From positions 1 through 39,838 of the forward strand of contig JACNGB010000039.1 of assembly GCA_014384345.1 (NCBI GenBank): a stretch of 39,838 nt of DNA, in the 5' to 3' direction. The notes under the pieces were generated by a model. It did not search any database. It was not told the origin of the DNA and saw only the letters and a list, made by a program, of their open reading frames with translations. Source of the stretch: Candidatus Thioglobus pontius. GTDB taxonomy: Bacteria; Pseudomonadota; Gammaproteobacteria; PS1; Pseudothioglobaceae. Positions 18,425-39,705 of this stretch are shown here, one piece after another. The position numbers and the translations under genes were made by a program. Every line of letters begins with the position of its first letter. Position 1 is the first letter of the stretch.

Positions 18425-19342
18425 ATGCCGATGATTCGCCTTTTATCAATCACACTACTGTTGCTATCTAACAATGCAATGTCAGCACCCAGCCTTGTTG
18501 TTAGTATTGCACCAGTCCACTCTATAGTTAGCAACATTACTCACGGTATTACCAAGCCACAGCTATTACTTAAAGATAATCAATCTGCTCACCATTTTCA
18601 CCTAAAACCTTCGCAACTCTCTTTGGTTGAAAATGCAGATTTAGTTATTGCCATTCATCCACGCATGGAAGAAGGATTAAACAAAACGCTGAGCAATATA
18701 GAGTCAGATAAAAAAATCTATATTGCTTCTTATGATGAGCATGATGAGCATGATGAGCATGATGAGCATGATGAGCATGATGAGCATGATGAGCATGATG
18801 AGCATGATGAGCATGATGAGCATTCTCAGAATAGTCCAAACTATCACCTATGGCTAAGTATTAATCATATGCAAAACTTTGCTAAAAAATTAACCAATCG
18901 TTTGTCTAACTTAGATACCAAAAACTCAGCTATCTATCAGCAAAACTATTTAAAGCTTGATCGAAAATTAACCCTATTAAAACAAAACATTCAGCAAATT
19001 TTGAAACATTCCAACCAGTCTATTGCTAGCTATTCAAATGCGTTCGGACACTTTATCAAAGAGAATGAATTAAAACAATCAACACTCATCACTTCAAAAC
19101 ACGAAGAGCGTTTAAGTATATATAAAATCATTAAAGCCAAAAAATCCATGCAGGCCAATAAGGCTAAATGTCTTTTAGCATCTACAGGTGTTGCCCCTAA
19201 ACGCATCAATACACTAACTGAAGGGCTTAAGATTAACACAGTACAGATTGATCCTATAGGCTCTGAATTTAACTCAGGCAATAGGCAATATTTTCAACTA
19301 CTAAATAACGTGGCCATCCAAGTAAACCAATGTCTACAGTAA
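18425..19342 (+). CDS. znuA: ZnuA-like metal ABC transporter substrate-binding protein
   Basis: 305 residues with a signal peptide (residues 1 to about 20, cleavage near AMSA). ZnuA captures periplasmic Zn for the ZnuBC permease. Family segments: SIAPVHSIVSNI, SAHHFHLKPSQLSLVENADLVI with His56-58, then a metal-rich loop of ten DEH units (104-133), H141 in YHLWLS, and IDPIGS near the end. The usual third ligand position (His in HDAYGYF) reads SNAFGHF, so His is replaced by Ser with another His four residues on. It is about as long as typical ZnuA once the loop is counted. No znuB or znuC is adjacent. Its end overlaps bioC by 13 bases. Confidence 0.85.
   Translation: MPMIRLLSITLLLLSNNAMSAPSLVVSIAPVHSIVSNITHGITKPQLLLKDNQSAHHFHLKPSQLSLVENADLVIAIHPRMEEGLNKTLSNIESDKKIYIASYDEHDEHDEHDEHDEHDEHDEHDEHDEHDEHSQNSPNYHLWLSINHMQNFAKKLTNRLSNLDTKNSAIYQQNYLKLDRKLTLLKQNIQQILKHSNQSIASYSNAFGHFIKENELKQSTLITSKHEERLSIYKIIKAKKSMQANKAKCLLASTGVAPKRINTLTEGLKINTVQIDPIGSEFNSGNRQYFQLLNNVAIQVNQCLQ
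18734..18823 (+). repeat. Tandem repeat of GATGAGCAT, ten units
   Basis: Ten perfect copies of the 9-base unit GATGAGCAT, coding (Asp-Glu-His) x10 in the ZnuA-like protein. Absence of silent differences between units points to recent slippage expansion or strong constraint. The unit is in-frame, so changes in copy number keep the reading frame. Confidence 0.97.
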
Positions 19343-29817: not shown

Positions 29818-31085
29818 TATCCTTTCACCATGCTTTTGCCGTGCTCAATATAGTATTCAAACTCTTCACGGAAATTTCTTAAGAAACTTTCAACAGGCAT
29901 TGCAGCAGCATCTCCTAGGGCGCAAATCGTATTGCCCATAATTTTTTCCTGCACACCCAATAATAAATCAATGTCGTCTGCCTTGCCTTTGCCGTCCATA
30001 ATGCGCTTTAGCACTCGATAAAGCCAGCCCGTGCCTTCGCGACACGGTGTACATTGGCCACAAGACTCATCATAGTAAAAATGCGCTAAGCGCGTTAACG
30101 CCTCAACCATACAAGTCGAGTCATCCATTACAATCACTGAACCAGCACCTAACATAGAGCCAGCTTTATCAATGCCATCATAATCCATGGTCATGCCCAT
30201 GGCTGCTTCTGCTGTTAATACTGGCGTCGATGAGCCACCCGGAATAACAGCTTTTAATTTGGCGCCATTACGCATACCACCAGCAAGCTCTAATAATTCT
30301 TTAAATGGCATACCCATAGATACTTCAAAGTTTGCCGGATTCGCCACATGACCTGAAACAGAAAACAGCTTGGTACCACCTGAATTTTCTACACCAAGAT
30401 CGGCAAACCACTGTCCGCCATTAGCCATAATATCTGGCACAGAGGCAAAACTTTCTGTATTGTTAATGGTGGTTGGCTTGCCAAATAAACCAACGTTAGC
30501 TGGGAATGGTGGTTTAAATCGTGGCTGGCCTTTTTTACCTTCAATTGATTCGAGCAAAGCCGTCTCTTCACCACAGATATAGGCGCCTGCGCCTAAATGT
30601 GCATACAAATCAAAATCAACCCCTGATTGATCAATATTTTTACCCAAAAGTCCGGCTGCATAAGCCTCTTTCAAAGCGCCTTCAAAACGATTAAACGGCT
30701 CCATAAACTCACCACGAATATAGTTGTAGCCAACCGTTGCGTTCATGACAAAGCTACCTATCGCCATACCTTCAATTACTGCATGTGGATTGTATCTAAG
30801 GATATCACGGTCTTTGCACGTGCCTGGCTCACCCTCGTCAGAATTACACACAATGTACTTTTGACCTTGTGCGTTGCGTGGCATAAAACTCCACTTAAGC
30901 CCGGTTGGGAAACCTGCGCCACCACGACCTCTTAAGCCTGAAGTTTTTAATTCTTCAATAATTTGCTCAGGGGTGTATTCGCCCTTAAGGATTTTGCGCC
31001 AAACACTATAACCACCGCTAGCCTCGTAGGTGGCTAATGACCAACATTGGTCTTTGTCTAGATTTTTAAAACAAACTTCATTCAT
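29817..31085 (-). CDS. nuoF: NADH-quinone oxidoreductase subunit F
   Basis: 422 residues. It holds FMN, the NADH site and one [4Fe-4S] cluster. [10 protein letters not shown] at 53-62 is the NADH/FMN glycine-rich loop. C342, C345 and C348 in [10 protein letters not shown], with C388, bind the cluster. It starts inside the end of nuoE (four-base overlap) and ends in the nuoG start (one base). Confidence 0.98.
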
Positions 31086-31555
31086 TTTAAGCCATCCACA
31101 ATTTCATCAATTTTTTCAATCGTTAGGTTTTCGTAGTACTGATCACCAATTTGAAACATTGGCGCACCCACACAAGCGCCTAGACACTCTACTTTTTTAA
31201 CGCTAACTAGGCCATCTTTACTAACTTCACCGGTTTTAACGCCTAGTTTGGTTTCAAGATGTGCAATTAGATCATCGGCACCATTTAACATGCAAGAGAT
31301 GTTATGGCAAAAACGAATTACGTGTTTACCCATCGGCTGATGATTGTAATTCTCGTAAAACGTAGCCACTTCAGCCGCAGCAATACCTGGCATATCCAAA
31401 TAATCAGCAACCGCTTGAATATTGTCGTGCGTTAATTGATTGTTATTTTCCGCCTGAACAATTTTCAAAGCCTCCATCACCGCAGAACTTTGACGTCCCT
31501 CTGGATATTTTGCTACCCAAGCATCGATTTGTTTTTTTGCTTTATTTGAAATCAT
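31082..31555 (-). CDS. nuoE: NADH-quinone oxidoreductase subunit E
   Basis: 157 residues, thioredoxin-like [2Fe-2S] protein of complex I. C83, C88, C124 and C128 form the ligands (CHNISC and CLGAC). A 151-base gap separates it from nuoD, filled by a palindromic element. Its own ribosome binding site is weak: AGGAAA lies about 20 bases upstream of the ATG. Confidence 0.97.
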
Positions 31556-31588
31556 GATTAATTAAACTTAAATTTCCTAAAAGGAGAA

Positions 31589-31703
31589 ACGAGTATTTTT
31601 ACTTTCTGCAAGGCAAGCGCAAGAATAAACAAAGGAGTGTAGTAAACGCTACATGACTGAGTGAATGATAAGCTTAACGCCGAAGAAGGTAAAAAGACGA
31701 AAT
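31589..31703. repeat. Structured palindromic element, copy 1 (nuoD-nuoE gap)
   Basis: 115 bases that share their two ends with a second copy at 39102-39219: ACGAGTATTTTTA then TTTCTGCAAGGC at one end, and AAAAGACGAAAT at the other. The ends are roughly inverted repeats. The centre has its own hairpin, TGTAG-TAAACG-CTACA (31638-31653). On the minus strand it begins four bases after the nuoD stop. No ORF is evident. It resembles REP/MITE-like elements in layout, with no transposase seen. Confidence 0.75.
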
Positions 31704-31706
31704 TTC

Positions 31707-32960
31707 TCATCGGTCTATTTCTCCAAATACAATATCTTGCGTACCAATAATAGTGACCACATCTGACAACATATGCCCTTTAGTCATTTCATCCATGGAG
31801 GCCAAATGTGCAAAACCAGGCGCTCTAATTTTTACTCTGTATGGCTTGTTAGCGCCATCAGAAATTAAGTAAATACCAAACTCACCCTTAGGATGCTCAA
31901 CCGCTTTATAAACTTCACCTTCTGGCAGTGAGTAGCCTTCAGTAAAGAGTTTAAAGTGATGAATTAATGACTCCATATCATCTTTCATGTCAGTGCGCTT
32001 TGGTGGCGCGACTTTTTTATCGTCACTCATCACTGAACCTGGATTCGCCTTAAGCCAATCAACACACTGACCAATAATTTTATTAGACTGGCGTAATTCT
32101 TCCATACGCACTAAATAACGATCATAACTGTCACCCGTGACACCTACTGGAATATCAAACTCAAGTTGATCATAAACCGCATACGGCTGATTTTTTCTTA
32201 AATCCCAAGCAACGCCAGAACCTCTCAACATAGGGCCAGTAAAGCCTAATTGCTTAGCACGTTTGGCAGAAACAATACCAATATTAACCAGTCTTTGCTT
32301 CCAAATGCGGTTCTCAGTTAATAAGTCATCATATTGTTTTATATGGCGTGGGAACTCTTTCACAAAATCATCAATAAAGTCTAGTAGCGAACCTTGGCGA
32401 TTCTCATTCATTACCTCTATTTCTTTGTCTGTACGCGTGTCTGTTTTCAGATATTTTGGCATCTGGTCTGGCAGATCACGGTACACACCACCTGGGCGGT
32501 AATAAGTAGCGTGCATACGAGAGCCTGAAACTGCCTCATAACAATCAATCAATTTTTCACGCTCACGGAATGCGTATAAGAAAATACTCATAGCGCCTAC
32601 GTCCAATGCGTGTGTACCTAGCCACATCAAGTGATTTAGAATTCGTGTAATTTCATCAAACATCACGCGAATGTATTTAGCACGCTCCGGCACCTCTAAC
32701 TCAAGCATGGTTTCAATCGCCATCACATAAGCATGCTCATTACACATCATCGAAACGTAATCTAGACGATCCATATAGCCAATTGACTGATTATAAGGTT
32801 TTGATTCAGCTAGCTTTTCAGTGCCACGGTGTAACAAGCCAATATGAGGATCAGCGCGCTCAATCACTTCGCCGTCAATTTCTAAAATGAGGCGGAGCAC
32901 GCCATGCGCTGCTGGATGTTGCGGACCAAAGTTAAGGGTATAGTTACGAATTTCCGCCAT
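31707..32960 (-). CDS. nuoD: NADH-quinone oxidoreductase subunit D
   Basis: 417 residues, the 49-kDa homologue that lines the quinone site with Nuo[16 protein letters not shown] near the start is the family's hallmark, and [14 protein letters not shown] is present in the middle. Separate nuoC and nuoD, rather than the nuoCD fusion of enterics, is the usual arrangement outside Enterobacterales. It follows nuoC by two bases. Confidence 0.98.
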
Positions 32961-39057: not shown

Positions 39058-39075
39058 AAAGTTTCTACAACTTTG

Positions 39076-39115
39076 CTCGTCTAACTTGCATATCAGTTTA
39101 GACGAGTATTTTTAT
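39076..39115 (+). terminator. Rho-independent terminator after cytochrome c5
   Basis: CTCGTCTAA (39076-39084) and TTAGACGAG (39098-39106) form a perfect 9-bp stem with a 13-base loop, followed by TATTTTTATTTT. The second arm overlaps the start of the palindromic element. Confidence 0.85.
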
Positions 39116-39219
39116 TTTCTGCAAGGCTTTTAAGATTTTTTGTCGACGGGAGTTTAGATTTTACTAAACGACCAAGTAAAAAATCTTAAGTAACGCAACA
39201 GAAAAACAAAAGACGAAAT
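39102..39219. repeat. Structured palindromic element, copy 2
   Basis: 118 bases, sharing ends with copy 1 at 31589-31703. Nested perfect stems: TTTTCTG/CAGAAAA (39115-39121 and 39199-39205), TTAAGATTTTTT/AAAAAATCTTAA (39130-39141 and 39178-39189) and GTTTAG/CTAAAC (39152-39157 and 39164-39169). On the minus strand it begins right after the asparaginase-like stop, as copy 1 does after nuoD. The stems differ in sequence from copy 1 but keep pairing, which suggests conserved structure. Confidence 0.8.
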
Positions 39220-39705
39220 CTAAATTTCTGTAAAAATGCCTAGGCTTTTGTCTTTCTTTACTTTGTCAAAATCAAACACTTGGCCATTCATAGCAATATA
39301 CACACCATTTGACTTAAGTTGCACTGCACTCAAAGCCACACCCAAATTAAACAAGGCATCAGAATTGTCAATTGAATATGGAATCATTGATCCAAACAAA
39401 ATCACAGTTTTGTCTTTAATGCTTTTAGCCAAAAATCGAGCCGTTTCCACCATAGTATCCGTACCATGTGTAATTAAGATATGTTGCTCATCACAAGACT
39501 GGCACTTATCCAAAATAAAAGAGCGATCTGCATCAGTCATTTCCAACGAATCTTTTAAAAACAATACCTCAGACAAGGTGTCAGCCATCGATCGTCCGCG
39601 ATTAAGCATATCCACTATATGCGTTTCAGTAAATGACAATTCACCAGTTAACTCCTTGTAGCTCTTGTCAATCGTACCGCCAGTGATTAAAACTTTGATT
39701 TTCAT
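39220..39705 (-). CDS. Asparaginase-like single-domain protein
   Basis: 161 residues, about half of a normal L-asparaginase. It has the N-terminal domain of the family with GGTID (9-13, T11 as nucleophile) and HGTDTM (80-85, T82 and D83). The second domain and the usual active-site lysine are missing. One-domain asparaginase homologues of this length occur in other bacteria, so it need not be a broken gene. Substrate unknown. No frameshift is seen. Confidence 0.8.
   Translation of the reverse strand: MKIKVLITGGTIDKSYKELTGELSFTETHIVDMLNRGRSMADTLSEVLFLKDSLEMTDADRSFILDKCQSCDEQHILITHGTDTMVETARFLAKSIKDKTVILFGSMIPYSIDNSDALFNLGVALSAVQLKSNGVYIAMNGQVFDFDKVKKDKSLGIFTEI

Follow-up and report, generated by a model that had tools for sequence, protein, structure and literature searches.

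We find that the palindromic element between nuoD and nuoE of Candidatus Thioglobus pontius is probably (with a probability of about 0.6) a mobile palindrome of SUP05/Thioglobus-type bacteria, ERIC-like and non-autonomous, which inserts at the 3′ ends of genes and in this operon parts nuoE from nuoD. Antisense pairing that is kept, polar landing at gene ends and patchy presence together argue that what selection maintains is the element's own movement as a folded strand; its nearest kin would be ERIC. Comparison reveals, in this ERIC-like family from small-genome bacteria, the placement at gene 3′ ends, the pairing of the antisense strand and the swaps of type between sister genomes. The placement of the CGTC end at gene and tRNA ends, the pairing of the antisense strand and the sharing of element types at dsrC and xerD go beyond an earlier note on this DNA. 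The window (the whole stretch analysed, 39,838 nucleotides) belongs to a genome of 1.25 Mb in 56 contigs. Its NuoD is 99% identical to that of a Candidatus Thioglobus MAG and 88 to 92% identical to Ruthturnera, Vesicomyosocius and Bathymodiolus symbiont records, which makes the host a gammaproteobacterium of SUP05/Thioglobus type, putatively of the Thioglobaceae. The features concerned are as follows.

31082 to 31555, minus strand: nuoE, named by NCBIfam
31556 to 31583, minus strand: spacer from the element to the nuoE start codon, missing where nuoD and nuoE overlap as ATGA
31584 to 31589, plus strand: left outer arm of copy 1, GAGAAA, pairing with 31703 to 31708 (by reading)
31590 to 31702, plus strand: element copy 1, 113-nt core, CGAG...GACGAAA on the plus strand, antisense to nuo
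31703 to 31708, plus strand: right outer arm of copy 1, TTTCTC (by reading)
31707 to 32960, minus strand: nuoD, named by NCBIfam
39103 to 39218, plus strand: core of element copy 2, with the arms TTTAGA before and TCTAAA after it
39220 to 39705, minus strand: asparaginase-like gene, its stop 1 nt from copy 2

The palindrome that the earlier note described between nuoD and nuoE is real, though imperfect: the plus strand of 31589 to 31703 folds at −32.8 kcal/mol (z −5.58), better than all 200 shuffles, whereas the minus strand, the sense of the nuo mRNA, reaches −18.8 kcal/mol (z −1.60), which 16 of 200 shuffles equal. Its extent had been given as 31589 to 31703 and is slightly larger, comprising the core and paired 6-nt arms. 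That copy 1 splits nuoD from nuoE is borne out, with gene identities from NCBIfam, and so is its start four bases behind the nuoD stop: the core edge lies 4 nt from the stop codon (31707 to 31709, minus strand), part of which is formed by the last two bases of the right arm. Copy 2, which the note held to be placed alike, is likewise a real element, its core 1 nt from the asparaginase-like stop.

The pairing of the element is maintained through compensatory changes. When 25 copies (both window copies included) are aligned, the ends and core are constant and the stems are variable yet paired, with both-side changes in 22 of 36 pairs. Among the 14 copies found at nuoD-nuoE junctions, 92.4% of pair cells hold standard pairs and 21 of 36 pairs have changed on both sides; none of 500 shuffles attains any of five pairing measures, and sliding the partner brings pairing down to 45 to 60%. 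The shuffle tests of fold and pairing, together with the compensatory changes, rule out a chance palindrome. The outer stem of 5 to 6 bp ends abruptly, with pairing of 0.93, 0.98, 0.98, 0.95, 0.82 and 0.65, then 0.30. In the 13 copies at a distance of 0 to 1 from their gene, one arm is the gene's own stop codon, and positions 1 to 5 are paired in all 13.

This pairing has a strand. On the plus strand, G·U outnumbers A·C by 89 to 7 in the 25 BLAST-found copies, by 355 to 40 in the 105 copies defined below and by 61 to 19 in the 14 nuoD-nuoE orthologs, and the excess is present in all stem segments. Note that the 105-copy alignment was fitted to a model that favours plus-strand pairing, whereas the 25-copy BLAST set was not so fitted. 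When the same gene was compared between genomes, single changes passed via G·U 33 times and to A·C 10 times, against a ratio of about 1.3:1 expected without selection, the pairs compared not being independent. The plus strand is more stable than the sense strand in 102 of 105 copies; the sense strand also folds, with z below −3 in 76 of the 105. The conserved pairing is thus that of the strand antisense to the adjoining gene. At nuo this counts against a simple mRNA hairpin.

The element is one of a dispersed family. BLAST with it found three further places in its own genome and matches in 11 of 57 relatives' genomes. We built a covariance model, R1, from 25 sequences that included both window copies; these two score 137 and 95 bits, as members of the building set, and the next-best place in the window scores 16.5 bits. 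At E ≤ 1e-3, R1 has 15 matches in the window's genome and matches 46 of 83 genomes of the host's family, with at most 27 per genome, leaving 37 without a match. At E ≤ 1e-4, 41 of 369 genomes in an even sample of the class match, three of them from the host's own family. No Rfam family reached its gathering score, the single match below threshold being Trp_leader_2 (24.2 bits, cut-off 100), and we found no account of such elements in SUP05, Thioglobus or vent symbionts in a literature search that covered subscription journals thinly. The comparisons below use 105 copies from 21 genomes, obtained from 115 matches by omitting the weakest 10, of which at least two are opposite-strand readings of counted copies and others may be real.

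Several further arrangements were seen among the matches. Tandem copies occur at four loci (L106, L089, L088 and L091), with up to several in genome G014. In two genera (L102 and L157), an element-like match lies in the 16S-23S rRNA spacer, upstream of the apparent 23S rRNA start. R1 matches outside the host's family (L147, L149, L141, L153, L151, L152 and L158) have long perfect terminal repeats, for example TAGACTTCTTTCGAAACC, TAGGACTTACGCAAAA, GAGACCTTTGCACGA and CACCTCTAAAAA, which look like insertion-sequence ends flanking an ERIC-like core.

Placement of the copies is strongly polar. In 78 of 105 copies the right (CGTC) end is faced by the 3′ end of a gene or tRNA at most 16 nt away; the left end is so faced in 7 of 105. 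Counted by group, gene-end placement holds for 22 of the 30 groups of protein genes and for 10 of the 12 groups of tRNAs. The element sits 0 to 8 nt behind many stop codons, and the tRNAs, which precede 23 of the 105 copies, mostly end 5 nt from the element core. Adjoining genes named by NCBIfam include nuoD, the asparaginase-like gene, xerD, dsrE2, dsrC/tusE, rlmH and a KpsF-type isomerase; hisD, greA, secF, lysS and yidC were named by eye. There are exceptions: the element precedes gcvH in 9 genomes, and for several copies hundreds of bases separate the element from the next frame. At four loci (next frame 333 to 422 nt off) we looked for tmRNA as an unseen gene and did not find it. In the class sample outside the family, gene-end placement was absent (0 of 18 loci).

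The nuoD-nuoE junction itself is variable among relatives. We located nuoE in 73 of the 83 family genomes and read 61 junctions, with 12 not read; two genomes (G097 and G021) have no nuoD upstream, leaving 59 junctions, the window's included. A full element is present in 14, a remnant in one, and the other 44, some of them in the window genome's own genus, leave no more than 6 nt between the genes, and in 33 of these nuoD and nuoE overlap. The filled set was reached by keeping 14 of 17 matches and omitting three opposite-strand ones. In all 14, which span six genera, the element has the identical place and orientation; one junction carries two elements in tandem, and two elements are low-scoring (66.8 and 64.2 bits) and look decayed. 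The remnant, in a gap of 64 nt, looks like an element that has lost its middle. Without an element, nuoD and nuoE overlap or lie almost end to end; with one, the nuoE start follows the element and a short leader. On a tree of NuoD and NuoE, the presence of the element requires at least 10 changes, and thus the element comes and goes. The earlier note had named an empty gap in relatives, together with unchanged coverage across the element, as what would refute its reading; the first of these two conditions holds, given the 44 short gaps.

An alternative is that the element is an RNA selected by the host within the nuo mRNA, whose stem behind the nuoD stop, opened by terminating ribosomes, would control attack by RNase E or RNase III, or nuoE translation, and so set the ratio of NuoA-D to NuoE-N. 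It would account for the compensatory pairing at the junction, for the position 0 to 8 nt behind many stops and for the greater likeness of the element than of nuoD four-fold sites between genomes: 0.98 versus 0.78 for G000 and G011, 0.93 versus 0.47 for G000 and G018, and 0.89 versus 0.43 for G000 and G026 (nuoE values for G004 were out of register and were excluded). An orientation-dependent effect of RNase E on mRNA stability, described for ERIC in Yersinia in the accessible parts of two reports (PMC2229807, PMC10969869), is a further point in its favour. Both the similarity of elements from distant genomes at one gene and the compensatory change at nuoD-nuoE are also expected of a host-selected element. 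However, 44 of the 59 junctions, the host's own genus included, do without the element, the pairing that is kept is on the antisense strand even among the 14 orthologs, and ribosomes do not explain the like placement behind tRNAs. Horizontal exchange can likewise produce high identity, and since unlinked copies of the family are already 0.66 alike, the identity at nuoD-nuoE is by itself no proof of selection at this site. For the same reason, although elements exceed four-fold sites in likeness in 117 of 119 pairs, we did not take this as proof of purifying selection. We regard a host-selected RNA as unlikely.

The mobile palindrome that we favour is also seen to turn over at other genes. Within the genus, the element is behind ansA in 1 of the 10 genomes read, with a remnant at one further gene copy (in G006), and behind rlmH in 4 of 12. 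At the KpsF-type (kdsD-like) gene, 6 of 12 sites are filled and three are empty, two hold a decayed element, and one is masked or ambiguous. The filled form of rlmH ends in ...HRD-TAG with the arm ATTAG and the empty form in ...HRE-TAA or TAG; because these gene ends differ, insertion has rewritten the last codons. Target sites read differently from gene to gene: filled and empty nuoD-nuoE sites both have ATGA, kdsD-like sites suggest CTAA on both sides, and at ansA and rlmH the gene ends are replaced. No clean target duplication was found at the nuoD-nuoE, ansA, rlmH and kdsD-like sites compared. The earlier note had offered three roles, namely tuning the amounts of the subunits, stabilising the nuoA-D message, or a mobile relic tolerated in an essential operon. 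The last is the best of these, given the short gaps in relatives and the occurrence, inside a single genus, of sites that are filled, decayed or empty; still, "relic" understates the copies whose pairing is kept by compensatory change.

Element types are shared at the same genes between genomes. A likeness of 0.85 or more is reached by 46 pairs of elements. Of these, 41 join different genomes, 37 of them at the same gene and often with unrelated distal flanks. At dsrC and xerD, an element type is common to different genera, yet differs between sister genomes. The sisters G000 and G011 (four-fold identity about 0.8) have elements 0.62 alike at dsrC and 0.66 alike at xerD, and each of these resembles that of a more distant genome: at dsrC, 0.96 to G032 and 0.91 to G002; at xerD, 0.80 to G006 for one, and 0.89 and 0.85 to G098 and G032 for the other. 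In the dsrC and xerD regions (L225, L103, L002 and L267), each convergent gap holds two facing elements, each by its own gene, and only one has been swapped. Inversion between the facing elements was considered as the cause and rejected, as the elements of the facing neighbours remain 0.95 and 0.96 alike between G000 and G011. The swaps could reflect either exchange at fixed sites or the sorting of old tandem copies. A more specific proposal, which we hold tentatively and think unlikely, is that of a gene-end homing element whose active form would be the folded single strand opposite the host transcript. It would land precisely after the stop codon of a gene or the CCA end of a tRNA, close a 5 to 6 bp stem across the border and be exchanged between genera at fixed genes without the adjoining gene, amounting to site-faithful cassette swapping.

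The strand-specific pairing would also fit transcription of the plus strand into a small RNA, antisense to the 3′ ends of genes, which would itself be the selected product. A weak promoter-like site on the plus strand at 31546 to 31574, just upstream of copy 1, could serve such a transcript; however, it is a 9-of-12 match that overlaps the nuoE start, and four sites of that grade were found where 1.3 are expected. Copy 2 has no such site, and the base frequencies in the left flanks of 102 copies show, by eye, no fixed −10/−35 pattern. We consider this very unlikely. Least probable of all is that the element is a bidirectional or Rho-type transcription terminator or attenuator within the nuo operon. 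Its location at gene ends and its pyrimidine-rich sense strand with C above G (core plus-strand frequencies: C 0.128, G 0.202) are what a terminator might show, but termination at copy 1 would cut off nuoE-N. A simple terminator was rejected, as our terminator scan found no hairpin followed by a T run within either window copy, and at dsrC and dsrE2 a classical terminator can be read downstream of the element, at places that the scan did not list.

A palindrome selected for its own movement would need an enzyme from elsewhere, and a REP mobilized by a REP-associated tyrosine transposase (RAYT) is one candidate. HUH enzymes act on one folded strand. Our transposase search covered Y1_Tnp, which occurs in 26 of the 46 element-bearing family genomes and in none of the 37 element-free ones, a count confounded by descent. 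One Y1 reading frame of the window's genome comes close to the REP_Tyr_transpos model (72.5 bits, cut-off 80). Against this, 20 element-bearing genomes have no Y1 match, and the flanks of the three Y1 genes (RAYT-like) of the window's genome hold no element (best scores 13.7 and 12.2 bits over 9224 bases). Two of the three have, by reading, GGCAAGGCC palindromes of their own instead. A RAYT-borne REP is weakened by these element-free flanks and separate palindromes, and we judge it distinctly unlikely. In the same genus, RAYT-like Y1 genes stand at L302, L303 and L304, and the second small palindrome, GGCAAGGCC, is also found in the rlmH gap of L323 and L325.

Among known systems, the closest is ERIC (also IRU or RU-1) of Enterobacteriaceae and Vibrionaceae. 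ERIC repeats serve in strain typing, and a 2011 study by Zo reportedly concerns, by its title, their divergence among Gammaproteobacteria. We located E. coli ERIC copies through the ERIC-PCR primer core, fetched three loci and searched two of them with R1 (the third is L161). R1, built from the element's own family alone, matches these two copies with 28.6 and 26.3 bits (E 6e-4 and 2e-3) in a search of 45,926 bases with filters off. Both matches span all 137 R1 positions in the same orientation, and the best non-element place scores 16.5 bits. This weak match from two copies is a lead to kinship, not proof of membership. ERIC is about 127 nt long, one long imperfect palindrome with a palindromic core; the element has a 113-nt core and 5 to 6-nt arms. 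It shares with ERIC the dispersed intergenic copies and the empty sites in relatives. The sequences are mostly unlike, however, and here the arms vary between copies but stay paired and the CGTC end is fixed at gene 3′ ends, a position for which ERIC copies are also on record in partly accessible sources. ERIC inserts into TA with TA duplication; at the element's own sites we see shared ATGA at nuoD-nuoE, possible CTAA flanks at kdsD-like sites and replaced gene ends at ansA and rlmH.

Integron attC sites, too, lie behind a gene as a variable palindrome whose folded strand is antisense to that gene, and in these respects they resemble the element. Their R boxes read RYYYAAC...GTTRRRY, whereas the ends of 102 element copies follow TTTRC...GYAAA, and element copies lie behind housekeeping genes and tRNAs. 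The CGTC- and GTAG-tagged REPs, in the parts of their description available (PMC3733652), are palindromes often found behind genes, with a CGTC motif at one end. They are described there with an 8 to 9 bp stem, a 4 to 5 nt loop and a tail like CCA, whereas the element is a single stem of about 123 to 125 nt. QMITE2 of Coxiella burnetii, as far as its accessible description goes (PMC5896051), is a 150 to 190 bp element mainly in 3′ untranslated regions; it differs in carrying a GTAG REP and 7 to 11 nt variable direct repeats.

As an ERIC-like mobile palindrome, the element would move, or would once have moved, as a folded single strand (the plus strand, opposite the RNA of the host gene). It would land behind gene ends and be tolerated there because the gene is left whole. 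Its arrival in nuo would remove the stop-start (ATGA) coupling of nuoE to nuoD, and the nuoD stop would then be followed by a stem that ribosomes can reach. The expression of nuo may be affected. With coupling lost and the stem accessible to ribosomes, any such effect would probably be slight and would bear on the start of nuoE or on mRNA decay, as reported for ERIC in Yersinia, and not on termination.

Two smaller repeats were seen in the window. At 39070 to 39102 the left end of copy 2 recurs once more, inverted (CTCGTCTAA...TTAGACGAG), and a remnant of the same kind lies behind the second asparaginase-like gene of G006. A tandem repeat of 9 bp (ATGATGAGC) occupies 18705 to 18848, within the reading frame 18425 to 19342.
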